From: Anaerolineae bacterium
GTDB lineage: Bacteria; Chloroflexota; Anaerolineae; DRVO01
Length of the DNA: 46,709 nt
Assembly (NCBI GenBank): GCA_013178015.1
Contig: JABLXR010000029.1
Coordinates: 1 to 46,709, forward strand
Direction: 5' to 3'
The translations under genes and the position numbers were made by a program. The notes beneath the pieces were generated by a model, which searched no databases, had not been told where the DNA came from, and worked only from the letters and a program-made list of their open reading frames with translations. Positions 2,193 to 39,829 of this stretch are shown here, piece by piece (within the stretch, counting starts at the first letter, position 1; the number at the start of each line of letters is the position of its first letter).

Positions 2193-2313
2193 AGAAGGAG
2201 TTGGTGTAGAAAGACCAGCGAGGACTAGCGTAGTACCGGCGGCATCTGAGTGCTGTTGCCCAGGCTGCGGCCTACCTCAGGGGCTGGGCCGCGTGATGGC
2301 GGCAGGAGGGGAT

Positions 2314-4557
2314 ATGGCGCTGATGCGTGAACCACAGCACCACAGCTGGGCCGAGTTGCAGCGGAACATCGCCCTGCAGACGGGCGTGGTGCTGGGGCTG
2401 GTGGGCTGGTACGGATGGTACCGCACTCTGATTGTCCCCCTTTGGGATGCCCGGGTGGTCGGAATCCTACTGGCGGCCACCGCCGCCTGCCTGGTTCCCC
2501 TCTTGCGGCCGAGGCTGGGGGGCGCCTGGGCTCACGCGATACAGGTTGCCGCAGCCGCGACCGCAGCCTACCTCTGTTACGCCGCGTTGGGCTACCAGGT
2601 CGCCCTGCTTTTCCTAGCCTTGCCTCTCCTCCAGGCGGCCCTGACTCTCCCTCTGTGGGTGCCGCCTATCCTCGCCTTGGGCTTCTCCGTCGCTGTGGCC
2701 GCGGGCGGGCCCAGACCGACTGAGACCCTATGGGCCTACACCGTGCTTTACCTTTCGGTGACCGGAATGGGTCTCCTGGTGGCCCAGAGCTTCCGGGGCG
2801 CACTGGCCGACTCGTGGAGACACGTGGGAGTGACGGGCGACTTGGTGCGGGAGGTGCGGGCCCGCCAGGAGGAGATCAACCGGCTCAACAAAGCTCTCAA
2901 GGTGTCCAATGGCCTGCTCAAGCGTAGCCTCTCCGAGCTGGCGCTGGCTACCCGGGAAGCGGAGGAGGCCCGGCACCTGAAGGAGCAGTTCGCCACCACT
3001 GTGAGCCACGAACTGCGCACGCCGCTCAACATAATCCTGGGCTTCGTGGATGTGATGCAGCAGTACCCGGAAGTGTACGGGGAGGTGAACTGGACTCCCC
3101 TCCTGCGGCGGGACCTGGGGGAGATCCAGCGGGGCGCTCGATACCTGTCCTCTCTGGTAGACGACATCCTGGACCTGGCCCGCATCCAGGCGCTCAAGAT
3201 GCCCATCCACCGGGAGCAGACCGACCTGAAGGCCCTGGTGGAGGAGGTCACGGCCCTGGCGGGCCGGCTGCTGCTGACGAAGCCGGAGGTGCGCCTGACT
3301 TCTGACGTTCCCGACGGCTTGCCCAGCTTGTATGTGGATCAGACTCGGGTGCGCCAGGTACTGCTCAATCTCTTGGCCAATGCCTGCCGCTTCACCGCTC
3401 AGGGTGAGATAGCGGTGCGGGTGGAGCTCAACGCGGAAGAGGTGGTGATCGGCGTGGCCGACACCGGCTCCGGCATCGCTCCGGAGCAGTTGGACGCCAT
3501 ATTCGAGGAGTTCCGCCAGGAGGCCCGCGCCATGCCCCAGGGGGACGAGGGGGTGGGCAAGGGGCTGGGGCTGGCCATCGCCAAGCGATTCGTGCAGATG
3601 CACGGGGGAAGGATCTGGGCCGAGAGCACTCTGGGTCAGGGAAGCACCTTCTACTTCACCCTACCCCTGATGGAGAAACGGGTCGTCTCTCTGCCGGCGC
3701 CGGCAGGCCAGGCCGAGCCTACCATCAAGGCTGAGCCGGCGGTGATCCTGGTGGATGAGGGCGAGGGGCAAGCCTTTCTGGCCCGGCACCTGGAGGGCTA
3801 CCAGGTGCTGGCGGCCCCCGACCTGGTGACGGCGCGCAGACTCACCCGGGAGAGACACCCGCGGGCGATCATCCTCAACGTGCCCCCGCCCGCCGAAGGG
3901 GCCACCCAAGGGCCGCTGCCGCCCATCGTCCCGGAGCCGGTGCCGGTGCTGCAGTGCTCGCTACCCACCGGGAGCTGGTCCTCGGAGCGACACCTCTTCG
4001 ACGACTGGCTGGTCAAGCCTGTCACCAGCGAGAAGCTGCTGGGAGCGCTGGCGCGCTTCCCGGAGGCCCGCCGGGTGTTCGTGGTGGACGACGATCGGGG
4101 CTTCGTCCGCCTGGTGCGGCGCATTCTGGAGGCGCTGCCCCAACCCTACGAGGTGGCCTGGGCCCACCAGGGCGAGGAGGCGCTGGCTCTGTTGCAGGAG
4201 AAGGGGCGGGCCGGCTCCGGGCAGGGCGAAGGCTCGCCGGGCAGTGACGGCGGGGTAGACGTGGTATTGCTCGACATCGCGCTGCCGGGCCTGGATGGCC
4301 GAGCCGTTGCTCGGGCGCTGCGGAAGGATGGCGGGGACCGCTGTCCCGTCCTCATCGCGGTGACAGCGGTGCAGCCGGGGCTGGAGGGCCCGGCGACGAG
4401 CCCGCGCGCGTTCGCCGTAACCTCCAGCGTGGGGTTCCGCGAGGAGGACACTCTGGAGCTCATCCGCGCCTGCCTGGGGCGCCTCAAGCCTGCCTTCGCC
4501 CTCGAATCACCTGGTTCAGAGCCTGAAGGAGAACCGGCCGAGACACGGGCTTGGTGA
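2314..4557 (+). CDS. Membrane hybrid sensor histidine kinase with pseudo-receiver and receiver
   Basis: The 747-residue protein has five to six N-terminal membrane segments (about 15-165) with no large external sensor domain. A coiled linker follows (about 185-225). The HisKA box is FATTVSHELRTPLN with phospho-acceptor H232. The HATPase_c domain shows ADTGSGI (D383) and GKGLGLAIAKRFV. A receiver-like segment (about 478-585) lacks the acceptor Asp, with N522 in AIILNV, but keeps the later Lys in LVKPVT. The C-terminal receiver has the acidic VVDDD pocket and D654 in VVLLDIALPG. The ATG at 2314 is chosen because AGGAGG (2304-2309) precedes it; GTG 2293 and ATG 2296 lack such a site. The 3' end overlaps the convergent regulator gene by 74 bases. 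The paralogue at 32923-35097 has the same domain order. Confidence 0.92.
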   Translation: MALMREPQHHSWAELQRNIALQTGVVLGLVGWYGWYRTLIVPLWDARVVGILLAATAACLVPLLRPRLGGAWAHAIQVAAAATAAYLCYAALGYQVALLFLALPLLQAALTLPLWVPPILALGFSVAVAAGGPRPTETLWAYTVLYLSVTGMGLLVAQSFRGALADSWRHVGVTGDLVREVRARQEEINRLNKALKVSNGLLKRSLSELALATREAEEARHLKEQFATTVSHELRTPLNIILGFVDVMQQYPEVYGEVNWTPLLRRDLGEIQRGARYLSSLVDDILDLARIQALKMPIHREQTDLKALVEEVTALAGRLLLTKPEVRLTSDVPDGLPSLYVDQTRVRQVLLNLLANACRFTAQGEIAVRVELNAEEVVIGVADTGSGIAPEQLDAIFEEFRQEARAMPQGDEGVGKGLGLAIAKRFVQMHGGRIWAESTLGQGSTFYFTLPLMEKRVVSLPAPAGQAEPTIKAEPAVILVDEGEGQAFLARHLEGYQVLAAPDLVTARRLTRERHPRAIILNVPPPAEGATQGPLPPIVPEPVPVLQCSLPTGSWSSERHLFDDWLVKPVTSEKLLGALARFPEARRVFVVDDDRGFVRLVRRILEALPQPYEVAWAHQGEEALALLQEKGRAGSGQGEGSPGSDGGVDVVLLDIALPGLDGRAVARALRKDGGDRCPVLIAVTAVQPGLEGPATSPRAFAVTSSVGFREEDTLELIRACLGRLKPAFALESPGSEPEGEPAETRAW

Positions 4558-5653
4558 TGTAGGCGGCGGCCCCCAGCGCCGATCCCAACGCCGGGTCGTC
4601 CACTACTGAACACACGATCACGGGGATGTCTCGGGTACGCTCGTCTACCTTGAGTGCCTGCAGGACGCGCCAGCCGTCCGTCTCTGGCATCATGATGTCC
4701 AGCAGCACGGCCTCGGCCCGGGTCGCCGCGGCCAGGTTGCCGGCCACCCGGGGGCTGGGGGCGAGGATGGGCTGCCACTCGCTGTTGGCCAGGTATCGCT
4801 GATAGAGGGCGAAGGCGGCCGGGTTGTCCTCCACCACCACCACTCGCCGGTCGCCGCAGCGGGGGAGGATGAGGTGGAGGCAACGCTCATCCCCCTCGCC
4901 TACGTACCGGTGGCGGAGATTCTGGGCTTCGGCGACTCGCAGGGCGGAGTGCAGCAGGTCGCGGCGGGCCATGTCTTCCTCAGGCCCGACCGGCAGCGAC
5001 AGGAGGATGTCGTCGCCCTGCGCCTCCAGCACCACCTCAACTTCGGCGCGATCGGTGCTCTGGACAATTGCGCTCAGGAGCTGGGTGATGATCTCGCCCA
5101 GGATGCCGGGGCTGGCGCTGGTCACCATCTCCTGATCCGGCTCCCGGCGGTGCAGGCGGATACCGCAGGCATCGGCCAGAGGGGCGACGGTGGCCGTGGC
5201 CTGAGATATCAGGCGGGAGAGGTCCACCCGTTCTGGAGTGCCGGCGAGGGCGCCCAGTTCGCTGTCGAGGGAGTCCTGGCGCTGGTCGATGTCGCGATCG
5301 GACAGCTTTCGAGCCAGGAGCTCGCACAGTCGCTCCTCGCCCCAGCGCAGGTCGCGGTAGACCTGGCGGGTGCTGAGGGCGAGCTCCTCGGCTATCTCCT
5401 CGATGGAGAGGCTGGAGATGTAGCGGAGGCTGATGCACTCATGAGCGCGGTACTCGGAGGCGGAGGGGGCCACTTTGCCGGTGGGGCGGAGGGCCTCGAT
5501 GGCGTCCAGGAGGAGGCGGCGGAGGGCGTGGCCGCGCTGGGGGCCCCGAGCTGGATGCAGGGCGGCGGCCAGCTCGGTCCGCTCGAGCTCGGCCGGGCTG
5601 TAGAGGGCCAGCAATGCCTCGCGGACGTGCTCTTTGGTGATCGGACCAGGCAT
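4484..5653 (-). CDS. Response regulator: sigma-like HTH, pseudo-HATPase, C-terminal receiver
   Basis: The 389-residue protein has an unusual order. Residues 72-113 form a sigma-70 region-4-like helix-turn-helix (SLSIEEIAEELALSTRQVYRD). Residues 143-263 resemble a kinase ATP-binding domain (VDLSRLISQA, then GEIITQLLSAIVQST at the N-box position) but lack the N-box Asn and the DxGxG box. Residues 269-385 are a complete receiver with VVVVEDN, D319 in AVLLDIMMPETDGW and K368 in ITKPVS. DNA-binding proteins of two-component systems normally carry the receiver first. The partner is probably the convergent kinase whose 3' end it overlaps. The start is the ATG at 5653, which gives the same beginning as the paralogue at 36289. 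It is divergent from sugar cassette 1, which it may control. Confidence 0.85.
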   Translation of the reverse strand: MPGPITKEHVREALLALYSPAELERTELAAALHPARGPQRGHALRRLLLDAIEALRPTGKVAPSASEYRAHECISLRYISSLSIEEIAEELALSTRQVYRDLRWGEERLCELLARKLSDRDIDQRQDSLDSELGALAGTPERVDLSRLISQATATVAPLADACGIRLHRREPDQEMVTSASPGILGEIITQLLSAIVQSTDRAEVEVVLEAQGDDILLSLPVGPEEDMARRDLLHSALRVAEAQNLRHRYVGEGDERCLHLILPRCGDRRVVVVEDNPAAFALYQRYLANSEWQPILAPSPRVAGNLAAATRAEAVLLDIMMPETDGWRVLQALKVDERTRDIPVIVCSVVDDPALGSALGAAAYITKPVSRPVLLQALNQVIRGRRQA

Positions 5654-5802
5654 GGAGTAGCTCCGAAGCGCGCGATCTGCGGTCCGTCGCGTCAGCACAT
5701 GCGCGTCGTGCCCGTCGGGCGCTCAAGACTGCGCTATGGCGGAGCAGGCAACCGTGACAGACTCTGTCGTTGGATTGTCAAGCGTTGCTACTCGGGGGTC
5801 AT

Positions 5803-5808
5803 TATACT
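5803..5808 (+). promoter_or_regulatory. Possible -10 element for sugar cassette 1
   Basis: TATACT lies 83 bases before the binding-protein ATG, inside ATTATACT. The best upstream hexamer is TTGTCA (5775-5780), but its 22-base spacing is too long for a standard sigma-70 promoter. An activator-dependent promoter would fit the adjacent regulator gene. The same ATTATACT string occurs upstream of the second kinase (32803-32810). Confidence 0.3.
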
Positions 5809-5891: not shown

Positions 5892-7250
5892 ATGAGAAAC
5901 AGTCACGGACTGTCCAGAAGGAGTTTCCTCCGAGCGGCCGGGGTCTTCGGGGGAGCGGCGGCGCTGGCAGCCTGCGCGCCGGCGACACCACAGGTAGTGG
6001 AGAAGGTGGTGAAGGAGACGGTGGTCGTCGCCCCCGAGGCCGCCGAGAAGGCACCGGTGACCCTCACGCACTGGCAGCACCATGCGGCGAGTTACGTTCA
6101 GGCGGTTGAGTCGTTCAAGGCTCGGTTCGAGGACTTGTATCCGCATGTCAGCATCGACTTCCAGTCCATTCCTTGGGCTGAATTCTGGGGCAAACTAGCA
6201 TCGGCGATCGCCGCTGGCAAAGGCTCGGCCCCTGACGTGTTCATGATTCCGATGGGCCTGATCGATGAGTATGTACTGGGTGGCAGCCTAGTACCCGTCG
6301 ACGAGAACATCATAACAACCGCAGAGATAGAGGAGAGCTACTGGGACTGGACCATCGCAAGAGGCAAGAAGGATGGAGTCTACTACGGCCTTCCCCTCAA
6401 CGTCCAGACTCTGCTTATCTATCGCAACAACGTCATACATGAGGAGGCGGGTCTGGACCCCACGGAACCATTCATCGACCACGCCGACTTCTATGAGAAG
6501 GCGATGTTGATGATGAAGAAGACGAATGGGGAGACCGACCAGATCGGCTGCAACACTAACTACTACTGCGCCTGGCAGACGACCCTGTACCAGCAGTTCC
6601 TCCAGCGGGAGAAGGATGGAACCCACTGGATCGATCCGGCGACAAACCGGCTAGTCTGGCACGACTACCCTGAGATCTTCCAGGCCTTTGAGTGGTTCTG
6701 CAAGCTCTCAGCAGACGCTGACGACAGTGCCTTCATGAAAGGGCAGAACAGGTTCGCGTTGGGCAAGGCCGGTATGGAGATCGGGCATCCAGTCTCGCGA
6801 GGCACGCTGCGCATCACCGCACCTGATCTGGAGTACACCATTTCGCCTTTCCCCCCGCGCTCAGCCGGACAAGACCTCTACACCGCAGGCTCGCATTGGA
6901 TGTGGGTGGTCGGAAAGTGGGCACCGGACTACCATACCGCTTGGCAGTGGGTGCACTTCTGCACGAACAAACCGGCACAGGTCACCTGGGTTGACGTGGC
7001 GGGGGACCTTCCAAGCCACAAGGACTTGGCTGATGAGCCGCGGTTCCGTCAGGACGCCAACGCTGTGGTGGTCATGGACTCGATCAAGTACGCTTCCCCA
7101 TGGGAATGGGTCGGCTGGGCAGAGTGGTGCAAGGAGTTCACGGACGCCAGGGACCGCGTCGTCATCGGCGGTGAGGCCACGGAACAGTCGTTCAACACCA
7201 TGGTGGAGAACCTCAACAAAGTCATCGATACACACACACCGAAAGCGTAG
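5892..7250 (+). CDS. Sugar ABC transporter substrate-binding lipoprotein (cassette 1)
   Basis: The 452-residue protein belongs to the family 1 extracellular solute-binding proteins (MalE/UgpB-like). The N-terminus has a twin-arginine signal (SRRSFLRAAG, R9-R10) ending in the lipobox LAAC (C28). It should therefore be exported folded by Tat and anchored by lipid. A short V/E/K stalk follows (VVEKVVKETVVV). The mature part shows the family pattern DVFMIPMGLIDEYVLGGSLVPVDE. The ATG at 5892 follows GGAGGT (5882-5887); an earlier ATG at 5736 would bury the signal peptide. It heads an operon with two permeases and a URO-D-like enzyme. A strong hairpin directly after its stop may raise its level over the permeases. 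The sugar bound is not predictable. Confidence 0.93.
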   Translation: MRNSHGLSRRSFLRAAGVFGGAAALAACAPATPQVVEKVVKETVVVAPEAAEKAPVTLTHWQHHAASYVQAVESFKARFEDLYPHVSIDFQSIPWAEFWGKLASAIAAGKGSAPDVFMIPMGLIDEYVLGGSLVPVDENIITTAEIEESYWDWTIARGKKDGVYYGLPLNVQTLLIYRNNVIHEEAGLDPTEPFIDHADFYEKAMLMMKKTNGETDQIGCNTNYYCAWQTTLYQQFLQREKDGTHWIDPATNRLVWHDYPEIFQAFEWFCKLSADADDSAFMKGQNRFALGKAGMEIGHPVSRGTLRITAPDLEYTISPFPPRSAGQDLYTAGSHWMWVVGKWAPDYHTAWQWVHFCTNKPAQVTWVDVAGDLPSHKDLADEPRFRQDANAVVVMDSIKYASPWEWVGWAEWCKEFTDARDRVVIGGEATEQSFNTMVENLNKVIDTHTPKA

Positions 7251-7257
7251 CGCGACC

Positions 7258-7287
7258 CTTGGGTGCGGGCCGCGGCCCGCACCCAAG
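7258..7287 (+). terminator. Intercistronic GC-rich hairpin after the cassette 1 binding protein
   Basis: CTTGGGTGCGGGCC (7258-7271) and GGCCCGCACCCAAG (7274-7287) are perfect inverted repeats of 14 bases. No T-run follows, so partial termination or 3'-end stabilisation of the binding-protein transcript is more likely than complete termination. Cassette 2 has a hairpin in the same place. Confidence 0.6.
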
Positions 7288-7336
7288 CCCTAGTTGGCCG
7301 CCGACGCCGGGCTCGCGAGCGACGGAAGAAAGGTCT

Positions 7337-8281
7337 ATGGTTAGCCAAGCGGGTATACCCTTTGTCCAGAGAAGTCGCTGGAGTCGCCAGCGATTGCATG
7401 ATCTGGCGTGGGCCTATGTGTTCCTGTCGCCAGCATTCTTCTTCTTGATAGTGCTCCTGCTATTTCCCATAGTCTTCGCCTTCTGGATCAGCCTGCGCGA
7501 TTGGAGCCTGATCCCGCGCCCGTACCCCTTCATCGGATTGCGCAACTATGCGGAGGCCTTCAGCGACCCTCTGACTGTCAAGAGCATCAAGAACACCTTC
7601 ATCTACACCGTTGGCGCCGTGCCCGTCAGTCTGGCCATCTCCCTGCTGCTCGCACTGGTGATGAACCAAGAGGGGTTGCCGCTGCGGACGGCCTTCCGCA
7701 CTGCCTATTTCATCCCCGTCATCACTTCGTGGGTGGCGGTCTCCTTCGTCTGGATCTGGATGTTCGAGCCACGCTGGGGCCTGGTCAACAGCTTCCTACG
7801 CCTGATCGGCATCACCGGCATCCGCTGGCTGGCCTCACCGCAGTGGGCGCTGCCGGCCATTATGATCGTAGCCATCTGGAAGGGGCTGGGCTACTATATG
7901 GTCATCTTCCTTGCTGGCCTGCAGACCATCCCGCGCGAACTGATGGAAGCCGCGCGGATTGACGGCGCCAATCGCTGGCAAGGCTTCCGCTCGGTTACCT
8001 TCCCGCTGCTCAACCCCACCATTGTCTTCTTGACCGTGACCTCGGTGATCGGGTCACTGCAGGTCTTCACTCCTGCAGTCATCATGACCACCGGCGCCGG
8101 GGGAGAGGCTGGGGGGCCGATCAACTCGACTCGAGTGATGGTGTATCACATCTACTCTATGGCCTTCCGAGCGAACCGGCTGGGCTATGGTGCCGCCCTG
8201 GCTTTCATTCTGTTCGCCATCATACTGGTCATCACGATCATCCAGCTACGCGTTACCCAACGCGAGTTTGAGTACTCTTGA
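7337..8281 (+). CDS. Sugar ABC transporter permease, MalF type (cassette 1)
   Basis: The 314-residue inner-membrane protein has six hydrophobic segments. The binding-protein-dependent permease (EAA) loop reads MEAARIDGANRWQGFRSVTFPLLNP, the contact site for the ATPase. It pairs with the next gene product to form the channel. The ATG at 7337 has GAAAGG upstream; the earlier in-frame GTG at 7259 lies inside the intercistronic hairpin and would add a proline/arginine-rich tail. No ATP-binding subunit is encoded in this cassette. Confidence 0.93.
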   Translation: MVSQAGIPFVQRSRWSRQRLHDLAWAYVFLSPAFFFLIVLLLFPIVFAFWISLRDWSLIPRPYPFIGLRNYAEAFSDPLTVKSIKNTFIYTVGAVPVSLAISLLLALVMNQEGLPLRTAFRTAYFIPVITSWVAVSFVWIWMFEPRWGLVNSFLRLIGITGIRWLASPQWALPAIMIVAIWKGLGYYMVIFLAGLQTIPRELMEAARIDGANRWQGFRSVTFPLLNPTIVFLTVTSVIGSLQVFTPAVIMTTGAGGEAGGPINSTRVMVYHIYSMAFRANRLGYGAALAFILFAIILVITIIQLRVTQREFEYS

Positions 8282-8339
8282 CGGGGGACGTCAGCCCCGG
8301 AATTGCGGCTGGACCACGCTATCCCGAGGAACGCATGAC

Positions 8340-9230
8340 ATGGCTCTGAACCAGGCCGTGCCCAAGCCTAGATCCAGGCGACGGGGACTACTGCGAGGTC
8401 TCAATGTGGGTGAGAGAGTGGCCCTGCTGGTGGGCCTGCTGCTGCTGGCCTTCGGCGGTGTGTGGATGCTCTTGCCGCTGATCTGGATGCTCTCCGCTTC
8501 GCTCATGCCGCTGTCGGAAGTTATCAAGGTACCACCAGTATGGTTCGCGCCGGCTAAGTACTCCCTCGCCAACTATGTCGAGGTGTGGTCTCGTGTCGGC
8601 TTCTCCCGCTATTTCTTCAACAGTGCTTTCGTGGCGACCACGATCACCGTCCTTCAGTTGCTGACCAGTGCCATGGCCGGGTTCGCCTTCGCCCGATACG
8701 ACTTCCCCGGGCGCACGGTGATATTCATCATTATCCTCTCCACCATGATGATCCCCTTTCAGGTGATCATGATTCCTCTCTTCATCATGATGGCACGACT
8801 GCGGCTAGTGAACACTATGTGGGGCCTGATCGTACCTTCTATGGTCACCGCCTTTGGGGTATTTCTGATGCGTCAGTTCATGCTTGGTGTCCCTAGGCCC
8901 CTGCTTGAGGCGGCCCGCATAGATGGCGCATCGGAGCCGTACATCTTCAGCCGCATCATGTTGCCTCTATGCAAGCCGGCTCTGGCGGCCCTGGGGATAT
9001 TCGCGTTCCTTGGGAGCTGGGACAACTTCCTCTGGCCCTTGATCATTATCAACAGCCGTGAGTTGTGGACTCTGCCGATAGCGATGTCCCGGTTCACAGA
9101 GCAGTACATAGCTCAGACCCACCTTCAGATGGCCGGTGCTGCCATCATGTTCGTGCCGGTTCTCGTGGTTTTCCTCCTGATGCAGCGCAACTTCATAGAA
9201 GGGATCGCCCTAACGGGCCTCAAGGGCTAG
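8340..9230 (+). CDS. Sugar ABC transporter permease, MalG type (cassette 1)
   Basis: The 296-residue inner-membrane protein has a basic N-terminal tail (PKPRSRRRG), then six membrane segments and the EAA loop LEAARIDGASEPYIFSRIMLP. The C-terminus with MQRNFIEGIALTGLKG is typical of MalG-like subunits. The ATG at 8340 follows GAGGA (8326-8330) at nine bases. An upstream in-frame GTG at 8187 would overlap the MalF gene. It forms the permease heterodimer with the preceding gene product, and the downstream enzyme gene begins seven bases after its stop. Confidence 0.92.
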   Translation: MALNQAVPKPRSRRRGLLRGLNVGERVALLVGLLLLAFGGVWMLLPLIWMLSASLMPLSEVIKVPPVWFAPAKYSLANYVEVWSRVGFSRYFFNSAFVATTITVLQLLTSAMAGFAFARYDFPGRTVIFIIILSTMMIPFQVIMIPLFIMMARLRLVNTMWGLIVPSMVTAFGVFLMRQFMLGVPRPLLEAARIDGASEPYIFSRIMLPLCKPALAALGIFAFLGSWDNFLWPLIIINSRELWTLPIAMSRFTEQYIAQTHLQMAGAAIMFVPVLVVFLLMQRNFIEGIALTGLKG

Positions 9231-28961: not shown

Positions 28962-29855
28962 CTACTTCATCCCCTGAATCATGATCCCCTGCACGAAGTA
29001 GCGCTGGCCTAAGAAGAAGAGCAGCAGTAGAGGCAGGATGGACACTAGCGAAATGGCCATCATCCAGTGCACCCGCTGCACCCCCAGACTGGACTGGAAC
29101 AGCCGCAGGCCCACGGCGATAGTGAACTTGTTGGGAGTGTTGAGGTAGATCAGGGGACCCATGAATTCGGTCCAGTAGTTAGTGATACAAAACATGGCCA
29201 CCACTCCGAGGACGGGTTTGGCTAGCGGCAAGACTATGCGGCTGTAGATGGTGAAGTAGCTGCCGCCGTCGATCCGAGTGGCGTCATCCAACTCCAGGGG
29301 AACGGTCATGTAGAACTGGCGTAGAAGAAAGATGTAGAAGGGGTTCCCCAGCCACCGAGGTACGACCAGGGGCCGATACGTGTTCAGCCATCCTAGGCGG
29401 CTAAAGATGGCGAAGAGCGGTATCAGGGTCACCTGATCCGGGAGCATCATGGTGCTCAGGACGAGCAGGAACAGGAGATTGCGGCCCCGGAAGCGTAACC
29501 GGGCAAAGCCGAAGGCCACCAGGGAGTTGGTGAGGATCTGCCCTAGCGTGGAGAGGACGGTGACGGTAATGGTGTTGGCGAAGAACCGGGGAGTAGGGAA
29601 CTGCCGCCAAGCATCCACGTAGTTCTGGAAGACCACCGGGTTCGGAATCCACTGGGGTGGCCAGGTGAAGACCTGAGACTGAACCTTGAGTGACGTGGAC
29701 AGCATCCACAAGAAGGGGATGAGGAAGATGACTCCGCCGGCTGCTACCACCAGGTACCGGGTCACTAGCCCCAGGGCCCGGACAGCCTGGCGAGAGGCCG
29801 TCACCTTGCGGCCCGGGCGAGTCAATGCCTTCGCGCCAGTGTGCACGTAGGCCAT
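28962..29855 (-). CDS. Sugar ABC transporter permease, MalG type (cassette 2)
   Basis: The 297-residue membrane protein has six hydrophobic segments. The ATPase-contact loop is LDDATRIDGGSYFTIYSRIVLPLAKP, and the MalG-like end is GQRYFVQGIMIQGMK. The ATG at 29855 has an AGGTAGGG stretch upstream and lies four bases from the MalF stop. It pairs with that product to form the membrane channel. No ATPase gene is present in the cassette. Confidence 0.93.
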   Translation of the reverse strand: MAYVHTGAKALTRPGRKVTASRQAVRALGLVTRYLVVAAGGVIFLIPFLWMLSTSLKVQSQVFTWPPQWIPNPVVFQNYVDAWRQFPTPRFFANTITVTVLSTLGQILTNSLVAFGFARLRFRGRNLLFLLVLSTMMLPDQVTLIPLFAIFSRLGWLNTYRPLVVPRWLGNPFYIFLLRQFYMTVPLELDDATRIDGGSYFTIYSRIVLPLAKPVLGVVAMFCITNYWTEFMGPLIYLNTPNKFTIAVGLRLFQSSLGVQRVHWMMAISLVSILPLLLLFFLGQRYFVQGIMIQGMK

Positions 29856-29859
29856 ATCC

Positions 29860-30777
29860 CTACCTGCCTGCCTTCACTTCGGCCTCGTAGTAGACCCACA
29901 TGGCCGAGGACTTGAACACCAACAGCGTGAGCGCCAGGATGATGAACAGGAGTATCCAGGCCAGGCCAGAGGCATATCCGAAGTGGTACTTCATGAAGGC
30001 CTGGTTGTACAGATTCAGCACGTACATGAGGGTGGCGTTGTTGGGGCCGCCCGCGGTCATGATGAAGGCGGCCGTAAACACCTGGAAGGAGCCAATGATG
30101 CCAGTGACCAGGGTGAAGAAGAGGGTCGGGGTGATCATGGGCAAGGTGATACTGCGGAAGCGCGCGATCGCGTTCGCTCCGTCGAGAGAAACGGCCTCAT
30201 ATAGCTCCTGAGGTACACCTCGCAGCCCGGCCAGGAAGATCATCATGCTGCCGCCTGCTCCCCAGAGAGACATGATGATGAGCGCCGGTTTGGCCCACTG
30301 CTCGCTAAAGAGCCACTTCGGCTGCGGCAGTCCCAGCCAAGCCAGCAAGGCGTTCATGATGCCGAACTGGGGGTTAAGGATCCACTGCCAGAGCAGGGCC
30401 ACAGCCACTCCGGAGACCACCGAGGGAAGGTAATAAACGGTGCGGAAGAGCCGCATGCCAAAGTATTCCGCATTTAGCAGGAGGGCGATGGCCAGGCCCA
30501 AGGCGATGCCCAGGGGCACGCTGATGAAGGAGTAGTAAGCGGTGTTGGCCAGGCTCTTGGTGAACAGGGGATCGTGGAAGAGTATGTTCCGATAGTTGTC
30601 CAGGCCGACGAAGACGGTGGGGGTCATGAAATCGGCCCGGCACAGGCTAAGGTAGAGCGAGATGGCCATTGGCCCCGCCGTGAAGGCGATGAAGCCAACC
30701 ACCCAGGGGGAGATGAAGAGGTAGCCGGCGATCTCCTCTTTCGCCCGCTGCGAGAGGCGCAGCGATTCTGCCACCAT
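29860..30777 (-). CDS. Sugar ABC transporter permease, MalF type (cassette 2)
   Basis: The 305-residue membrane protein has six hydrophobic segments and the loop LYEAVSLDGANAIARFRSITLPMITP, in which the usual EAA is EAV. ATG 30777 follows AGGGG; a longer frame from 30918 would overlap the intercistronic hairpin and is not like this family. The sequence ITAGGPNNATLMYVLNLYNQAF-type segment is shared with the cassette 3 MalF (GGGPNNATLFYVLYIYRQGW), which suggests that cassettes 2 and 3 are related. Confidence 0.93.
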   Translation of the reverse strand: MVAESLRLSQRAKEEIAGYLFISPWVVGFIAFTAGPMAISLYLSLCRADFMTPTVFVGLDNYRNILFHDPLFTKSLANTAYYSFISVPLGIALGLAIALLLNAEYFGMRLFRTVYYLPSVVSGVAVALLWQWILNPQFGIMNALLAWLGLPQPKWLFSEQWAKPALIIMSLWGAGGSMMIFLAGLRGVPQELYEAVSLDGANAIARFRSITLPMITPTLFFTLVTGIIGSFQVFTAAFIMTAGGPNNATLMYVLNLYNQAFMKYHFGYASGLAWILLFIILALTLLVFKSSAMWVYYEAEVKAGR

Positions 30778-30860
30778 GGTGTCACCCCTTATCTGCCGGA
30801 TGTACAGCCAAGGAATGATCCGTCGTCTGTCTGAAGGGCTCCGACCACCTGTGTAGTGCC

Positions 30861-30885
30861 GGGCAGGGCCGCTGAGGCCCTGCCC
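30861..30885 (-). terminator. Intercistronic hairpin after the cassette 2 binding protein
   Basis: GGGCAGGGCC (30861-30870) and GGCCCTGCCC (30876-30885) form a perfect 10-bp stem with a five-base loop, 51 bases after the binding-protein stop and before the MalF start. It matches the hairpin in cassette 1 in place and strength, so it probably sets the binding-protein to permease ratio. Confidence 0.65.
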
Positions 30886-30936
30886 CGTGACTTCGCGGGC
30901 GCCGAGTGGGCGTCTCAATGCATCTAGCGCGCCCCA

Positions 30937-32286
30937 TCAGGTCGTCTGGGCATACACCTGGCGGAGCTGCGCGGATGCCTGGGTAACCAGCTCCTCAACG
31001 GTGATGGCATTGAGGAGCATGCACTGGTCGTAGAGAGGATTCCAGATCTCGCTGAACTCCTGAGCGTTGCGAACCATTGATCGCACATCCGGGCGGCACG
31101 TCTCCATCACCTCGGAGACGCACTCTAGGTTCTTCTCCGGCATAAGCTCTTCCCAGGCCGTAGTGAGAGACCTCCTCGGTGGGGTCATGCCGATCTCGAG
31201 GTGCTTGAGGCAGATCTCGGGCGAAACCAGGTAGGCCAGGAACCGGAAAGCCTCGTCCGGGTACTTGGTCTTGCCATAGACGTGGTAGCCGTCCATGGAA
31301 GTGCGGGTGCCGACGCCGCACGGGCCCACGGGGGTGTTGATCATGTCCCAGTCGAAGCCCGACTCGTCTCGCACTAGGGTGACAATGCCTGACCCCTCGG
31401 TTAGCATGCCTGCCATCTGGGCCGTGAATGCCGCGCGCCCGCCCAACCCGGCCATCATCTCGGTCAGGCCATAGGAGCCATCCTTCCAGATCAGATCGTG
31501 AATGACCTGGAGGCCCTCGATGGTTTCTGGCTTGTCCAGAAGCACGACGGTGTCATCATCGGGGTCTACCACATCGCCGCAGTGGCTCCAGATGGAGCAG
31601 ATGTCGAGACGGGTCAGTCCGAAGCCGCCGGTGATGCCGAAGCGGGGCTTGTCCCTATCTGTTAGGGCATGGGCCAAGACCCTCAGGTCTTCCCACGTCC
31701 ACTCCGCGGTGGGGTGTGCTACCCCCAGCTCATCGAACATGTCCTTGTTGTAGTAGATGATGACAACGTTGAGGTATTTGGGGAGGGCAATCAACTGCCC
31801 TCTGTAGTCACAACCTTTGAGGGGGTTGGGGAAGAAGTCTTCGAGGTCCTCTCTCAGGTTGTGCCGGTCCACCGCCGGATTGAGGTCCAGCACCTGGCCT
31901 TTCTCAGCCCAGATCTTGAAATAGGAGCCGAACCCGGCGAAGACATCGGGAGCCTCGCCGCTAGCCATCTGGGCCGTGAGCTTCTCGAACCAGTCGCCTA
32001 TGCCGGGCTCATAGGTGACAGTGATGTCCGGGTTCTGCTCGTGGAACATGGCGCAGATCTCGTCGTTGTACTTCTGTTCGTCGGCCGGGTCTCCCCAGCC
32101 TCCCTCATCCACCCAGCGCAGCGCCACTACTTCCTGGGGCGCTGCTGCCGGAGCCGTAGTGGCGACGGCTTCGGTAGCCACCGGCGCCGGTGCTCCGGCG
32201 CAGGAAGCCAAGCCACTTGCCAGAATGCTGGTGCCCGTCATAGCCGCGAAGGTCTTGAGGAAACCACGCCGAGACACGGTAGGCAT
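30937..32286 (-). CDS. Sugar ABC transporter substrate-binding lipoprotein (cassette 2)
   Basis: The 449-residue family 1 solute-binding protein has a Tat signal (SRRGFLKTF, R6-R7) and lipobox LASC (C29), then an Ala/Thr/Val-rich spacer. The mature protein shows the family pattern YEPGIGDWFEKLTAQMASGEAPDVF, and YYNKDMFDELGV followed by WTWEDLRVLAHAL. ATG 32286 has GGAGGG upstream; the earlier in-frame ATG at 32337 would hide the signal. It leads a probable operon with two permeases and two aminotransferases, and is divergent from the second histidine kinase gene, which may sense the same nutrient. Confidence 0.93.
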   Translation of the reverse strand: MPTVSRRGFLKTFAAMTGTSILASGLASCAGAPAPVATEAVATTAPAAAPQEVVALRWVDEGGWGDPADEQKYNDEICAMFHEQNPDITVTYEPGIGDWFEKLTAQMASGEAPDVFAGFGSYFKIWAEKGQVLDLNPAVDRHNLREDLEDFFPNPLKGCDYRGQLIALPKYLNVVIIYYNKDMFDELGVAHPTAEWTWEDLRVLAHALTDRDKPRFGITGGFGLTRLDICSIWSHCGDVVDPDDDTVVLLDKPETIEGLQVIHDLIWKDGSYGLTEMMAGLGGRAAFTAQMAGMLTEGSGIVTLVRDESGFDWDMINTPVGPCGVGTRTSMDGYHVYGKTKYPDEAFRFLAYLVSPEICLKHLEIGMTPPRRSLTTAWEELMPEKNLECVSEVMETCRPDVRSMVRNAQEFSEIWNPLYDQCMLLNAITVEELVTQASAQLRQVYAQTT

Positions 32287-32804
32287 CTCATCCCTCCTTA
32301 CCCCGAACCCAAACCGGGGAACCGCGGGGCATTTCATCGGCCTGATGGTGTCTGAGTACCGGGAGCTGAGCTACTGGGTCGCCGGGACACCTCCTTTCCG
32401 GGACTGGCCGTGCCCGCCGGTGAGCGAAGTGGGCGATGTCCTGAGTCTGTCCGTGTCCGTACGAGGATGGCACTCCTATCGGCTTCGACGCACCAGCGAT
32501 GGGCGAGACGTGGTTCCGGCGTGGCTGACGCGGGAGCCGCTCACCTGAGGGGCTTGCACCTGCCCCCAGAGCTAGACCGTCTTCCGGCGCCAGGCTCCGC
32601 CCGGAAGCACGCCTGGCCTGCTCGACCCGTCTACCCCTGGGGCCAGAGGGTCGTGAGCCAGAAACTGATGTCGCGGATGGCCTCACTGGCCGACGAGTCT
32701 CCCCAACGCGTCCCGTGCCAATTCCTATGGCGCCTAGCCCGGCTCGTCATGGGGCCGTGGGCACGGGGGGCGCTCCATGGCTCTCGGAGTTGCTCATACT
32801 GCAT

Positions 32805-32810
32805 TATACT
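32805..32810 (+). promoter_or_regulatory. Possible -10 element of kinase 2
   Basis: TATACT within GCATTATACTGGGG; a second TACT-containing string lies just upstream. There is no good -35 at 16-18 bases. Transcription would start near 32817, so the GACATGTT repeats at 32852-32870 would be in the leader. Confidence 0.3.
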
Positions 32811-32851
32811 GGGGAGAGGGCTCCGCGAAGCCCTGTGTATGACAGGTTTCC

Positions 32852-32870
32852 GACATGTTACAGACATGTT
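32852..32870 (+). promoter_or_regulatory. Operator-like direct repeat GACATGTT x2, 11-bp phased
   Basis: GACATGTT occurs at 32852-32859 and 32863-32870. Each contains the palindrome ACATGT, and the copies are 11 bases apart, about one helical turn. This is the usual look of a binding site for a dimeric regulator on one DNA face. It lies 52 bases before the kinase ATG. Confidence 0.4.
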
Positions 32871-32922: not shown

Positions 32923-35097
32923 ATGTTCGTGGAGACGGGGTCTGGCGGAGCCGCAGCCGGTCTGGATCGGGCCACGCGGGAGGAGGTCCGTCAGTCCACA
33001 TTCAAGGCCTTCCTGACGGCCAGCACCCTCTTCGCGGTCTGGGGCTGGTGGCACTACTACAACGGCCCGGCTTCGGTTCCGGAGCTGCGCTGGATGACCC
33101 TGGGGACCGGCCTGGCCCTGCTGTCGGTATGTGTGCTGGCGGTGGAGGGAAGCCGATGGAGCCGGCCGGCCTACCTTATCACGGTCGGTGCCGCCATCAC
33201 GCTCTGCCAGTGGATGCAGATCTTCCCGCATGCCGGTTATCTCTGGGCGCTGGCCGCACTCGTCGCGGGGGCACTGGTGCACCCGGTGGCCGGCGTTGCG
33301 GCAGGGGCCCTGGGAGCGGCGGTCACGATGTCGCTCGGCGCCGGGGGGCTGCCGGAGGCCAGCGTGTCCGTCTTCGGCGGGGTGCTGGTGTGGCTGGCCC
33401 TGCGGCCGCTCTACGATCTGCTCCGGCGCTACTCGGCCCAGAGCCTGGAGGCGGTCACCCTGGCGGAACGGCTGCGCGACGAGCGGGCCAAGCTCAACCG
33501 AACCATTCGAGACCTGGACGCCTCCTACCGACTGATGGAGAGGACCAGCCGGGAGCTGGCTCTGGCGTGCAGGGAAGCGGACGCCTTACGAGACCTGAGG
33601 CACCAGTTCGCCACCAACCTCAGCCACGAACTGCGCACGCCCCTAAACATCATCCTGGGTTTCAGCCGCCTGGTCTACTCCCATCCGGAGATGTACGGCT
33701 ACGACGGTTGGGGCCGGGAGCTGATGCGTGACTTGGCGGAGATCCAGCGAAGCGCCGGCTACCTGTCCCAACTGGTGGATGACATTGTGGACCTGGCTCG
33801 GGCCGATGCCCTGTCCATGCCGGTGAGGCGGGAGCCGTGCGACATCGCCGCTCTGGCCCGGGAGGCGGTGGAGTTGGTGCGCAATCTGGCCCGGGGCCGG
33901 GGCATCGCGGTGGAGCTGCGCCTCGGTGAGGCTGGTGAGCCTATCGCTGCCGATCCGGTGCGGATCAGGCAGGTGCTCTTCAATCTGCTGACCAATGCCG
34001 TCCGCCACACCGAATCCGGTACAGTGACCGTGATGGTGCGTGAGGAAGGGGACGAGGTGGTGGTTACGGTGCGGGACACCGGCCGTGGCATCCCGGCGGC
34101 TGAGTTGGAGACGATCTTCAGCGAGTTCTACCAGCTGGGGCAGCCAGTCCACGGAGAAGAGCCGGGCAAAGGGCTGGGGCTGGCCATTGCTAAACGCTTC
34201 GTGCAACTCCATGGCGGTCGAATCTGGGTGGAGAGCGAAGTGGGTGTGGGCAGCTCCTTCCACTTCTCGTTGCCCCGGATCTCCAAGTCTTTCTCATCGC
34301 CGCTCCCGGCGGCGGCACCCGCGTACGGCGCTAAGCTCCAGCCACAGGTGCTTCTCCTGGGCGACGACGGGCCAGCGGGTCACTACCTCTCCCGGCGGCT
34401 GGAAGGGTTCCAGTTCGTGCCCGTGCCTGACCTGTCAGCAGGGGCGGCGGATGGTGACCTCGCCCGAGCGTCGGCCGTGCTCATCAACCGACCTTTGTCT
34501 GGCGGAGACGACGACGGGACTGAACGGCTACTGAACTTGCTGCCGCCCCACCTCCCGGTGATCGAATGCTGCCTTCCCACGCCGGCCTGGTTGCGGGATA
34601 GGGGGCTGTTTGCCGAAGTGCTGACTAAGCCCGTGGGTTCCGACGCCCTTCTGGCAGTGGTGCATCGATTCGTGGGAGACAAGGAGAAGGCCCGGATCTT
34701 GGTGGCCGATGACGACCGCGGCTTCACCCGGCTCATCTCCCGCATGCTGAACGCCGATGGTCCCTCGGGGCTGGAGCTGCTGACGGCCTACTCAGGAGAC
34801 GAGGCACTGGGCAAAGCTCGCAGCCAGCGCCCTGACCTGATCCTCATGGATCTGCTGATGCCAGGAATGCCCGGGTTCGAGGCGGCCGAGGCCATACGCG
34901 CCGACCCTGAGCTCAGTCAGGTGCCGGTAGTGGCGGTGACGGCGGCCACGCCGGGTGAGGACCGAGTGGAGGCTAGCGGCGCCAGTCTGACGGTCCTCAA
35001 GCGCGGTGGCTTCTCCCCGGGCGAGCTGACCGGTCTGCTACAGCATACTCTGGAGGAGCTCACTCGCCGGGCTCCCGACCATCCAGGCAGTCGGTAA
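32923..35097 (+). CDS. Membrane hybrid sensor histidine kinase (second copy)
   Basis: The 724-residue paralogue of the kinase at 2314 has the same order. Hydrophobic segments (about 25-165) are followed by a coiled linker and HisKA FATNLSHELRTPLN (H235). HATPase_c shows RDTGRGI and GKGLGLAIAKRFV. A pseudo-receiver carries N522 in AVLINR where Asp is expected, with a preserved LTKPVG. The C-terminal receiver has VADDD and D643 in LILMDLLMPG. No external sensor domain is seen, so it may sense a membrane partner or a signal within the bilayer. ATG 32923 follows GGAGGGA; the long in-frame extension upstream to 32410 is rejected. Its 3' end overlaps the convergent regulator gene by 38 bases. Confidence 0.91.
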   Translation: MFVETGSGGAAAGLDRATREEVRQSTFKAFLTASTLFAVWGWWHYYNGPASVPELRWMTLGTGLALLSVCVLAVEGSRWSRPAYLITVGAAITLCQWMQIFPHAGYLWALAALVAGALVHPVAGVAAGALGAAVTMSLGAGGLPEASVSVFGGVLVWLALRPLYDLLRRYSAQSLEAVTLAERLRDERAKLNRTIRDLDASYRLMERTSRELALACREADALRDLRHQFATNLSHELRTPLNIILGFSRLVYSHPEMYGYDGWGRELMRDLAEIQRSAGYLSQLVDDIVDLARADALSMPVRREPCDIAALAREAVELVRNLARGRGIAVELRLGEAGEPIAADPVRIRQVLFNLLTNAVRHTESGTVTVMVREEGDEVVVTVRDTGRGIPAAELETIFSEFYQLGQPVHGEEPGKGLGLAIAKRFVQLHGGRIWVESEVGVGSSFHFSLPRISKSFSSPLPAAAPAYGAKLQPQVLLLGDDGPAGHYLSRRLEGFQFVPVPDLSAGAADGDLARASAVLINRPLSGGDDDGTERLLNLLPPHLPVIECCLPTPAWLRDRGLFAEVLTKPVGSDALLAVVHRFVGDKEKARILVADDDRGFTRLISRMLNADGPSGLELLTAYSGDEALGKARSQRPDLILMDLLMPGMPGFEAAEAIRADPELSQVPVVAVTAATPGEDRVEASGASLTVLKRGGFSPGELTGLLQHTLEELTRRAPDHPGSR

Positions 35098-36289
35098 GGG
35101 CGGCCACGAGAGCCCCTCGGGAGACGGGCTTCACCAGATGGGCTCGAGCTCCCAGAGCCTGGCTCAGTGGCGGGTCCTGGACGATGGAGCACACCACCAC
35201 CGGAATGGCGGCTGTGACTGGATCGCTCGATAGCGCCCTCAACACGCTCCACCCATCCAGGTGCGGCAGCATGATGTCGAGGAGTATCACGTCGGGGCGG
35301 ACGCGGGCAGCCATGTCGAGGGCCAACCGGGGGTCAGGCACCGCATGGACCTGCCACCGAGCTGGCACCAGATAACGGCGGTACAGCTCCACAGCGCCGG
35401 GGTTATCCTCCACTACCAAAACGGTTCGTGGAGTACCGGAGCGAAGAGCAAGCGACACCCGGATCTCGCCGGTATGGGGGTCCCTCTCCAGGGCCACTGC
35501 CGCACCCTGGGCCCGGGCGATGAGCGACACGTCACTGAGCTGGTCGGCCGCGACGGGGGCGGTGGACGGTACGAAGGAGACCACCACACTGGGGAAGCCG
35601 TCACCCGTCGCCACCACCAGGCGCACCGGCTCGGCGCCGGATGCCTGAACGGCCAGGCTCAGGACCTGGGCCAGTATCTGCCTCAGGACGGCCTCGTCGG
35701 CCAGGACGGTCACCGGCTCTTCGGGCTGTGCCGCCCAGACTATCGGGGTCCCGGTTCTGTTGGCCAGAGGCCGTACCAGCTCCACGGCGGAGGCTGCTGC
35801 CCGGTTGAGGTCAACGACCACCGGCTGGCTGCGAAAGGCTTCCAGTTCGTCCTGGAACACGTCCGCAGGGCGATGACCCTCCCCCTCCGTCTTGGCGGAC
35901 GCCAGCCGGGTGCTGAGGAGCGATGCCAGCCTAGATTCGGCCATCCACAGGTCGCGGTGTACCTGACGTTCGCTCAGCGACAGCTCGCTGCCCACCTGCC
36001 GGGCAGTCATGTCCTCTATGTACCGCAGGGAGAGCACATCGTAGGCCCGGGACTCGAGGGAACCGAAGGGGTAACGGCGCAGCGGACGCAGAACCTCCAC
36101 CGCGTTCAGGAGAAGCGAACGCAGACGCATTCCCCGCTGTTCCGGCTCTGCGACTTGCGCCACTTCGCTGAAGCGACTGGCCAGAGAGGACATCCCCAGG
36201 GCGGCGTTGTCATAGAGGGACGCCAGGGCCTCGCGCACTTCGTCCCGCGACACTGGACCCGAAGGGCCGGTTCTGCTGGGCTTGATCAT
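35060..36289 (-). CDS. Response regulator: sigma-like HTH, pseudo-HATPase, C-terminal receiver (second copy)
   Basis: The 409-residue paralogue of the regulator at 4484-5653. It has the sigma region-4-like HTH at about 85-125 (SLRYIEDMTARQVGSELSLSERQVHRD). A kinase-ATPase-like middle (158-283) has lost the nucleotide motifs (VLRQILAQVLSLAVQASG at the N-box). The complete receiver has VLVVEDN, D338 in VILLDIMLPHLDGW and K387 in LVKPVS. ATG 36289 has GGAGGGG upstream at nine to ten bases. It runs in the same direction as the sulfatase and importer of cassette 3 and could be the last gene of that transcript. It faces kinase 2, its likely partner. Confidence 0.85.
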   Translation of the reverse strand: MIKPSRTGPSGPVSRDEVREALASLYDNAALGMSSLASRFSEVAQVAEPEQRGMRLRSLLLNAVEVLRPLRRYPFGSLESRAYDVLSLRYIEDMTARQVGSELSLSERQVHRDLWMAESRLASLLSTRLASAKTEGEGHRPADVFQDELEAFRSQPVVVDLNRAAASAVELVRPLANRTGTPIVWAAQPEEPVTVLADEAVLRQILAQVLSLAVQASGAEPVRLVVATGDGFPSVVVSFVPSTAPVAADQLSDVSLIARAQGAAVALERDPHTGEIRVSLALRSGTPRTVLVVEDNPGAVELYRRYLVPARWQVHAVPDPRLALDMAARVRPDVILLDIMLPHLDGWSVLRALSSDPVTAAIPVVVCSIVQDPPLSQALGARAHLVKPVSRGALVAALTDCLDGREPGE

Positions 36290-36552: not shown

Positions 36553-38025
36553 TCACTGGCGCCCGTCACCTCGGGGACCGGGGCGCGCGACGTCCGGACC
36601 GACGGGGGCAAAGCGGAACATGCCGTAGTGAGAGCCGTGCATGTTGTAGTCGCCGATCTCCCAGATGTGGCGCCACATGCGTTCGGCCATCTGGCGGCAC
36701 AGCGGGGCATAGCGGTGATCGAGGGCCAGGTTGGTCATCTCGTGGGGGTCGGCCTCCAGGTCGTACAACTCGTCGTAGTCGAAGCCGTTGAAGACGTACT
36801 TGTAGCGGTCCCACCAGACGATGCGCTGGGTCCAGAAGAAGCGCTGGCCGTGGAACTCGGCGAAATGGTCATCGCGCCAGTCGTCTGGGGTCTCACCGTG
36901 GAGCAGGGGGACCAGCGAGCGGGCGTGGCAAGGCTCCAGGGTGCCGCTGTCGGTCATCTCCAGGATGGTGGGGGCCAGATCCATGATGCTGACCAGGTCA
37001 TCGCAGGTGGTGCCCGGCGAGGTGACGCCAGGCCAGCGGATGATCATGGGGATGCGGTAGCCCTCCTCGAAGGGGAAGACGCCCAGGCACATGAGCCCGT
37101 GGGCCCCCATCATGGTGCCGTGATCGTTAGTGTAGATGACGATGGTGTTGTCCGCTTGCCCCGTCTCCTCCAGCGCCTGGAGGGCGCGGGAGATCTGGTC
37201 GTCCACCAGAGAGCAGAAGCCGTAGTAAGCGGCGATGGTGCGGGCAAAGTCGTCCCACTCCATGCGCGCCCAGGTCTGCTTCATGCGGCGGTAGATGTTG
37301 GGCCGGTCGGCCAGGTTGTCGTGGAAGGAGGCGGGCTTGCGGATGCGGCCAGGGTCGTACCGTTCCCAGTACGGGCGAGGGATGACGCAGGACTCACCGG
37401 GGGCCGAAGTGCTGATGAAGCTGACCCAGGGCTGGCCCGAGGCAGCGGCCCGGCGCATGTAGTCTATGCCGCGGGAGTAGATGTAGTGCTCCAGGGTGGA
37501 CTCGACCGGCTCGTCATGCACGCCGAAGAGGCGGTAGGGCTGGTAGCCCGGCTGCTCCACCTCGTAGTGGGGCGAGAGGCTCGCCGGCCGCGGTCCCAAG
37601 CCCATCCCACGGCGATGCTCCTCGAACGCCTCGTGCAGCCCGCCGCCGGGGCTGACGGCGTACTCCTCGAAGCCGAATCGCTCCAGCTGGTTGCTCCGCT
37701 CTACGTGCCATTTGCCGAAGTAGCCCAGCCGGTAGCCGTGGGCGTGCAGCCGCTGGCTCCACATCTCGAGGCTGGTATCCAGCTCGGCCCGATAGGGCTC
37801 CACCACATGGGTGGTGTCCACCATGCCGTGGGTGCTGGGGTAGACGCCGGTGAGGAGGCTGGCCCGGGTGGGAGAGCAGATGGCGTTGACCGTGTAGGCG
37901 CGGGAGAAGCGCACTCCCTGGGAGGCGAGGCGGTCCAGGGCAGGGGTGAGGCACTGGGAGCCGGGGTCTATGGTGCTGGCCTGCTGCTGGTCGGTCATCA
38001 GGAAGAGGATGTTCGGTCTAGGCAA
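36553..38025 (-). CDS. Sulfatase (formylglycine-dependent, Cys type)
   Basis: The 490-residue protein of the alkaline phosphatase-like sulfatase family begins with NILFLMTDQQ (metal-binding D12). It carries the activation motif CSPTRASLLTG at C50-R54, where the Cys would be converted to formylglycine. Further motifs are HGMVDTTH, YFGKWHVE, YTNDHGTMMGAHGL and PMIIRWPG. No signal peptide is seen, so it should work in the cytoplasm on imported sulfated sugars. The TTG at 38025 follows AGGAGG at five bases. It lies downstream of the cassette 3 binding protein in the same direction, which suggests uptake and desulfation of a sulfated saccharide. The formylglycine-generating enzyme is not in the window. 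Confidence 0.93.
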   Translation of the reverse strand: MPRPNILFLMTDQQQASTIDPGSQCLTPALDRLASQGVRFSRAYTVNAICSPTRASLLTGVYPSTHGMVDTTHVVEPYRAELDTSLEMWSQRLHAHGYRLGYFGKWHVERSNQLERFGFEEYAVSPGGGLHEAFEEHRRGMGLGPRPASLSPHYEVEQPGYQPYRLFGVHDEPVESTLEHYIYSRGIDYMRRAAASGQPWVSFISTSAPGESCVIPRPYWERYDPGRIRKPASFHDNLADRPNIYRRMKQTWARMEWDDFARTIAAYYGFCSLVDDQISRALQALEETGQADNTIVIYTNDHGTMMGAHGLMCLGVFPFEEGYRIPMIIRWPGVTSPGTTCDDLVSIMDLAPTILEMTDSGTLEPCHARSLVPLLHGETPDDWRDDHFAEFHGQRFFWTQRIVWWDRYKYVFNGFDYDELYDLEADPHEMTNLALDHRYAPLCRQMAERMWRHIWEIGDYNMHGSHYGMFRFAPVGPDVARPGPRGDGRQ

Positions 38026-39727: not shown

Positions 39728-39759
39728 GATCTTCCTCCTCAGCGTTCGTCTATCGTAGC

Positions 39760-39829
39760 CGGGAGGCCCGACGCCTCCCGCGGGCCGACCAGAAGGTCCG
39801 CTCGGCACCGCACTTGGCGGTGCGATGCC
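39760..39829 (-). promoter_or_regulatory. Two leader hairpins upstream of the cassette 3 binding-protein gene
   Basis: CGGGAGGC/GCCTCCCG (39760-39767 and 39773-39780) and GCACCGC/GCGGTGC (39805-39811 and 39817-39823, extended by CGGC/GCCG) form two stems in the 163-base gap between the MalG stop and the binding-protein start. They could be RNA processing or stabilising sites that let the third gene be made in excess. Confidence 0.45.

Follow-up and report, generated by a model that had tools for sequence, protein, structure and literature searches.

Chloroflexota response regulators with a dead ATPase domain between helix-turn-helix and receiver are paired with convergent hybrid histidine kinases near ABC importers

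The DNA analyzed here is contig JABLXR010000029.1 of an Anaerolineae bacterium (Chloroflexota; assembly GCA_013178015.1). It is 46,709 nucleotides long, is referred to as the window, and is one contig of a 4.57-Mb draft genome. The window carries two copies of a regulator in which a helix-turn-helix (HTH) comes first, a degenerate histidine kinase ATPase domain follows and a receiver closes the protein. Each regulator gene faces a gene for a membrane-bound hybrid histidine kinase, the two genes overlapping at their 3' ends, and an ATP-binding cassette (ABC) importer lies nearby, upstream of the regulator in copy 1 and divergent from the kinase in copy 2 (Table 1). Start codons were assigned by rule and not from data. 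The genome encodes 36 such regulator paralogues, and together with their kinases they form part of a family of bacterial sensor-regulator gene pairs that is large and seems not to have been described.

Table 1. Features of the two regulator-kinase cassettes in the window and of the neighboring importers and predicted sites.
Feature	Position	Strand	Details
Regulator copy 1	4484..5653	-	389 aa from ATG; HTH, dead HATPase_c, receiver
Copy 1, sigma-region-4-like HTH	5309..5458	-	residues 66-115; Pfam Sigma70_r4, AlphaFold2
Copy 1, recognition helix			begins near residue 95; Y99 as specificity residue; residue-base code
Copy 1, dead GHKL/HATPase_c domain	4850..5236	-	residues 140-268; profile, fold, motif counts
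Copy 1, receiver	4487..4849	-	phospho-acceptor D319; S349; K368
Partner hybrid histidine kinase copy 1	2293..4557	+	membrane region, HisKA, HATPase_c, degenerate first receiver (REC1), second receiver (REC2)
Kinase/regulator 3'-end overlap copy 1	4484..4557		74 bp
Candidate operator copy 1 (imperfect)	5755..5780	read on +	TGTCA 5776-5780, TGTCG 5765-5769, TGACA 5755-5759; last spacing 10 bp, not 11
Importer -10 box copy 1	5803..5808	+	TATACT; 22 bp from operator edge
ABC importer copy 1	5892..9230	+	solute-binding protein 5892-7250; permeases 7259-8281, 8187-9230
Regulator copy 2	35060..36289	-	409 aa from ATG; architecture as copy 1
Partner hybrid histidine kinase copy 2	32923..35097	+	ATG at 32923 chosen by us; mechanical open reading frame from 32410
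Kinase/regulator 3'-end overlap copy 2	35060..35097		38 bp
Predicted operator copy 2, kinase side	32840..32866		TGACA-N6-CGACA-N6-AGACA
-10 box copy 2	32803..32808	-	TATAAT (perfect); 31 bp from operator edge; about 466 nt from start of solute-binding protein reading frame
ABC importer divergent from kinase copy 2	28962..32337	-	solute-binding protein 30937-32337; permeases 29860-30918, 28962-29855

Both regulators in the window match the Pfam receiver model PF00072 above its cut-off, while their HTHs match Sigma70_r4 or Sigma70_r4_2 with E-values of 3e-5 to 7e-4, slightly below the Pfam cut-off. Across 92 kinase-regulator pairs of the family, the phosphorylation-site Asp of the regulator receiver is present in 92/92, the Lys in 91/92 and the Ser/Thr in 91/92. 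With a receiver that contains the acidic pair, the Asp, the Ser/Thr and the Lys, and with an adjacent cognate HisKA-HATPase_c kinase, these proteins read as two-component response regulators. They do not have the layout of OmpR and PhoB, in which an N-terminal receiver is followed by a C-terminal winged helix; here, the receiver is C-terminal and the HTH is N-terminal and sigma-region-4-like. The N-terminal 60 residues are helical in the AlphaFold2 model, and no match to sigma region 2 was found in the regulators with Pfam, a fold search of the N-terminal part alone not having been made. An earlier note, made from the letters of the window, had proposed the order of HTH, dead GHKL domain and intact receiver for both copies; Pfam, profile comparison and fold agree with this order, and both open reading frames are present. 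The note was aware of no standard response-regulator class with this order, and neither Pfam nor NCBIfam holds a model of the whole protein. The reversal itself, however, is shared by PhyR (PMC4598750).

Pfam detects no HATPase in the middle of either window regulator, and among the 36 paralogous middle domains, scanned singly, only two match HATPase_c, and these weakly. However, when a profile built from the 36 middle domains was compared with the Protein Data Bank, histidine kinases filled the top of the list, with the hybrid kinase 6qrj as the best match (E 6.8e-9), and hhalign matched this profile to the ATPase domain of the partner kinases with a probability of 98.6% (E 5.8e-16). The AlphaFold model of the middle domain (mean predicted local distance difference test score 93.4) matches kinase catalytic domains, including HK853 (Z 16.7, root-mean-square deviation 2.7 Å over 137 residues) and also RetS and DivL, while ShkA is the best fold match for the whole regulator model. 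Because the profile matches, the hhalign comparison and the fold matches point in the same direction, the middle domain is assigned to the GHKL fold by sequence and by structure, and the fold comparison that the earlier note had put forward as a check comes out in its favor. The ATP site has not been kept: among 100 family members, the G1 Asp is found in 0/100, the G2 glycines in 0/100 and the N-box Asn in 1/100, the lack of the N-box Asn and of the DxGxG box having been read by the note from the two window copies, and the segment corresponding to the ATP lid has a median length of 12.5 residues compared to 35 in the partner kinases. Judged by its sequence, the middle domain is thus a true HATPase_c relative that lacks the usual ATP site and is dead. 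It has been kept in all full-length members. Its columns have a lower mean identity (32%) than those of the whole protein (41%), and its alignment shows no apparent invariant residue or conserved polar pocket; rather, the conserved positions resemble a helix core.

The relative orientation of regulator and kinase genes is nearly constant. Among the 34 regulators of the source genome that have a kinase in reach, 33 are arranged tail-to-tail with it and a single pair is on the same strand. The 3' ends overlap in 31 of these pairs, by 10-98 bp, with a median of 71 over the 33 convergent pairs. By our count, the length of the overlap is 2 modulo 3 in 29 of these 31 pairs, and the antisense phase is therefore nearly constant, which may reflect ancestry or GC-rich antisense frames. 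In relatives, 67 of 69 loci are convergent, a few of these loci being the same genome met twice. All seven adjacent kinase/regulator pairs of the same genome that do not belong to the family, read by eye from gene lists, are on the same strand. In a survey of two-component genes in sequenced prokaryotes, pairs less than 200 bp apart were on the same strand by a ratio above 15:1, and opposite-strand pairs did not accumulate near zero distance (PMC3018481). The whole family departs from the same-strand rule of that survey, and does so with 36 members in one genome. The sole same-strand cassette of the source genome (L026:3150-6575) has directly abutting genes, and the start codon of its regulator was not found by rule.

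About 36 of the 57 HisKA kinases in the genome belong to the family. Most have four to five predicted membrane segments in the N-terminal part, and the catalytic His is present in 92/92. In REC1, the Asp is lost in most members while the Lys is kept in 92/92; in REC2, the Asp is present in 92/92 and there is no clear KP motif. Distances in the kinase and regulator trees of the 92 pairs correlate at 0.79, as opposed to at most 0.10 in permutations, and 54 of 89 splits are shared. Because the two trees agree, we conclude that the pair duplicates as a cassette.

Importers accompany most cassettes. Within 10 kb of 33 of the 36 regulators there is a permease or solute-binding protein that belongs to an ABC importer; in 26 cases the importer lies upstream of the regulator and is transcribed divergently, and in five it lies beyond the kinase and is divergent from it. 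An SBP_bac_8 protein is encoded within 5 kb of 28 of the 36 regulators, a neighborhood that covers 12% of the genome (P about 1e-17). In the window, a sulfatase gene of the SGSH_C type (36553-38025, minus strand) adjoins a second ABC importer set (38258-41805, minus strand), upstream of regulator copy 2 and in its orientation; the sulfatase and this importer set are a possible locus for uptake of sulfated glycans.

Upstream of many regulators, three copies of the half-site nG[A/C]CA are spaced 11 bp apart on the regulator strand, mostly 0 to about 115 bp upstream of the regulator start codon. The half-site was first spotted by eye in upstream regions of the source genome and then tested, so that only the set from relatives is independent of its discovery; unbiased counts of dyads in the upstream regions returned GC-rich dyads only, slightly above shuffles. 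The score for three copies stands out at a period of 11 and at no other, with a mean of 12.11 in the source genome compared to 10.62 in shuffled sequences. In 64 independent upstream regions, 52% pass compared to 3.5% of shuffles, and 31 of 33 arrays are on the expected strand (31:2). The exact pattern GMCA-N7-GMCA-N7-GMCA occurs 24 times genome-wide and its reversed control eight times; by our count, 12 of the 24 are at the cassettes of this family or at the importers beside them. Read in the importer direction, a -10 box lies at one of two distances to the edge of the array, 21-22 bp (six cases at 21) or 31-32 bp (16 cases), where about 0.5 cases are expected per offset. With the -10 box placed at -12 to -7, the repeat closest to it would lie over the -35 region or a turn of the helix farther upstream. 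In the regulator direction, no fixed spacing between array and -10 box was found. The kinase-side cassettes L018 and L023 share the operator geometry of copy 2. In another locus, a second triple repeat (L016:2355-2381; contig 7:47855-47880) lies about 2.8 kb upstream of the regulator and directly upstream of the gene for an importer solute-binding protein. Loci L077 and L036 have extra TGTCA-like half-sites beyond the triple array on the importer side, and some operators may thus hold more than three repeats.

The recognition helix of the regulator follows the sequence of these arrays. Residue 99 is the best of all alignment columns for half-site base 1 (z 9.8), and residues 99 and 95 best predict the base preceding it. 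With the base of each array called without using the regulator residue, Arg at position 99 goes with G in 9/9 cases, Gln with C in 7/8 and Tyr, Phe, His, Leu or Trp with T in 28/28, altogether 44/45, whereas at most 33/45 agree in 20,000 permutations of the code. On a tree built without the HTH, residue and base each change about seven times, with eight joint changes compared to 21 in shuffles. Because residue 99 tracks the half-site base, the HTH of the regulator is tied to the triple-repeat site. From a gapless Pfam alignment together with the consensus of that profile, we take residue 99 to correspond to R588 of sigma70. Substitution of R588 in sigma70 relaxes -35 specificity (PMC2613000). 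The code also bears on a comparison with PhyR, the alphaproteobacterial general stress regulator, in which a sigma-like part likewise comes first and a receiver closes the protein. PhyR contains parts corresponding to sigma2 and sigma4 and binds the anti-sigma factor NepR rather than DNA (PMC4598750), and the shared domain order could be taken to mean that the sigma-like part here, too, traps an anti-sigma factor without binding DNA. We regard this as very unlikely, because a recognition helix that follows the bases of a cis site in 44/45 cases is not predicted by such a trap and because Pfam finds no sigma region 2; moreover, unlike PhyR, the regulators have an inserted GHKL domain and go with a DNA site to which a residue-base code applies.

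Based on these data, we suggest that the regulator is a DNA-binding activator that is phosphorylated by its convergent kinase and switches on the neighboring importer via the triple repeat, a reading to which we give a probability of about 0.8. Computation supports the homologies, the pairing, the co-inheritance, the operator, the residue-base code and the phase of operator to -10 box. We infer that phosphate is transferred and that the effect is activation and not repression, and likewise infer the oligomeric state and the role of the middle domain. In this model, the membrane hybrid kinase would autophosphorylate, and the phosphate would be passed to the C-terminal receiver of the regulator, either directly or via REC2 of the kinase. 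The regulator would bind the tandem triple direct repeat, with its 11-bp period, between the cassette and the divergent importer operon; the probable arrangement is three protomers placed head-to-tail along a single face of the DNA. From there, it would activate the importer promoter from a position just upstream of, or overlapping, the -35 region, with the middle domain probably acting as an ATP-independent scaffold that links receiver and HTH. The same operator and the same code would also suit a regulator that represses the importer, and perhaps itself: the array is close upstream of the start codon of the regulator, where it could block the regulator's own transcription, and sites of the 21-bp class would overlap the -35 region. 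A repressor, however, needs no phasing, while in the importer direction the array precedes the -10 box at two distances that differ by one helical turn, and in the regulator direction no fixed spacing to a -10 box was seen. We therefore consider repression unlikely.

Several observations weigh against the activator model. In the 400 bp upstream, roughly half of the regulators lack a strong repeat; some of these carry an array on the kinase side, and for others none was found. Within the window, the array of copy 1 is imperfect, and some 0.47 kb separate the predicted site of copy 2 from the start codon of the importer. The argument for activation is purely geometric. Covariation across the 92 kinase-regulator pairs did not single out the interface between receiver and DHp domain, and clade structure dominates the signal. 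Finally, the kinase has no histidine phosphotransfer (HPt) domain and its REC1 is degenerate, and for these reasons the proposed path of the phosphate is tentative.

For the middle domain, the activator model leaves room for three roles. A C-terminal receiver must reach the HTH across the dead domain, and a coupling role is therefore the least costly; the domain is probably an ATP-independent scaffold that couples receiver to HTH, a proposal that we hold at roughly even odds and place before kinase docking and, after that, ligand sensing. The earlier note had suggested that the middle domain could bind to the dimer of the kinase and there stand in for a true ATPase domain. This is disfavored, as the partner kinases hold a complete ATPase domain of their own and, in what is a weak test, the middle domain takes part in 17 of the top 100 inter-protein couplings compared to about 40 expected by area. 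In a related form of this idea, the dead domain would be a decoy on the DHp dimer of the partner kinase and would tune its kinase or phosphatase activity, which is compatible with the operator model. True HATPase_c homology and fold, the matches to RetS and DivL and the preservation of the domain in every full-length member are in keeping with such a decoy; nevertheless, the same depletion of couplings applies, and the ATP lid, which in kinases forms part of the partner-recognition surface together with DHp helix 1 (PMC3433190), is absent, and we find docking doubtful. Slightly less likely still is a role in which the domain senses a small ligand and so gates the regulator, again compatible with the operator model. 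With its Bergerat-like fold retained and the pocket rebuilt, the domain could accept a different ligand, and it is less conserved than the protein as a whole; on the other hand, the conservation follows a helix-core pattern, with neither an invariant residue nor a conserved polar pocket evident.

The individual parts of the system are known, but their arrangement and the cassette have, as far as we have seen, not been described; a literature search for the regulator family, in which subscription journals were thinly covered, found no description. The Pho box consists of 11-bp repeats with the core CTGTCAT (PMC2648988). PhoB/OmpR systems resemble the one described here in having tandem direct repeats with an 11-bp period near the -35 region, and the Pho core is close to the TGTCA/TGGCA seen here in the importer direction. 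They differ in that here the order of the regulator is reversed, the HTH is sigma-region-4-like and not a winged helix, the repeats are three and not two, and a dead ATPase domain is inserted. ChpT does not bind ATP (PMC3433190), and ChpT and Spo0B share with the middle domain a GHKL fold without an ATP lid. However, these proteins keep a DHp-like helical hairpin with a phosphate-shuttling His, while the regulator has an HTH in that place and a receiver after the GHKL domain; what lies ahead of the GHKL domain is the HTH with a linker helix, and the alignment shows no conserved His in this part. Hybrid kinases of the ShkA and HrmK type also have HATPase_c followed by a receiver, but, unlike them, the regulator has neither a DHp domain nor an ATP site and carries an HTH fused in front.

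Over its last two thirds, the regulator can be aligned along the full length with hybrid kinases from other Chloroflexota. Descent from its own partner kinase was considered and rejected, because the receiver of the regulator is nearer to receivers of other hybrid kinases (107-133 bits for the best ones) than to that of the partner (median 50); the ATPase domain is about equally near to both. As far as sequence comparison can tell, the regulator likely arose from another hybrid kinase and an HTH module. On contig 40, a 732-residue open reading frame (L136:340-2538, plus strand) has a HisKA_7TM match, weak GAF matches and a C-terminal stretch related to the HTH of the regulators; it has no kinase core by Pfam and may be a membrane-bound one-component version of the DNA-binding module. 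Within the source genome, two truncated copies extend onto other contigs: L030, on contig 91, has its start on contig 47, and L043, on contig 64, apparently runs on into contig 69, whose kinase is again convergent, with an overlap of about 95 bp. Among named relatives, the nearest one that has many copies is the metagenome-assembled genome 'Anaerolineae bacterium RSWS13', which, to judge from identical matches, seems to be from the same taxonomic family as the source bacterium. Full-length members are present in many more genomes from the class, and in a few from elsewhere in the phylum among those sampled. The search of the relatives' contigs used a narrow 9-row subset of the alignment and does not show absence outside Chloroflexota.

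More tentatively, we speculate that these cassettes may represent a distinct two-component class, in which obligatorily convergent genes with overlapping 3' ends are present in tens of copies per genome and each pair would serve its own importer via a coded triple-repeat operator that helps to separate the paralogues. The overlap itself might then be regulatory, with transcript collision or antisense pairing setting the ratio of kinase to regulator, and the dead domain might relay the phosphorylation state to the HTH. If the activator model is true, a signal-output pair would be assigned to many importer operons of Chloroflexota, and the dead kinase domain would be placed where its deletion can isolate its function. 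The family would also provide a natural data set of tens of paralogous regulators and operators that can be read together, in which specificity and insulation would be directly testable.

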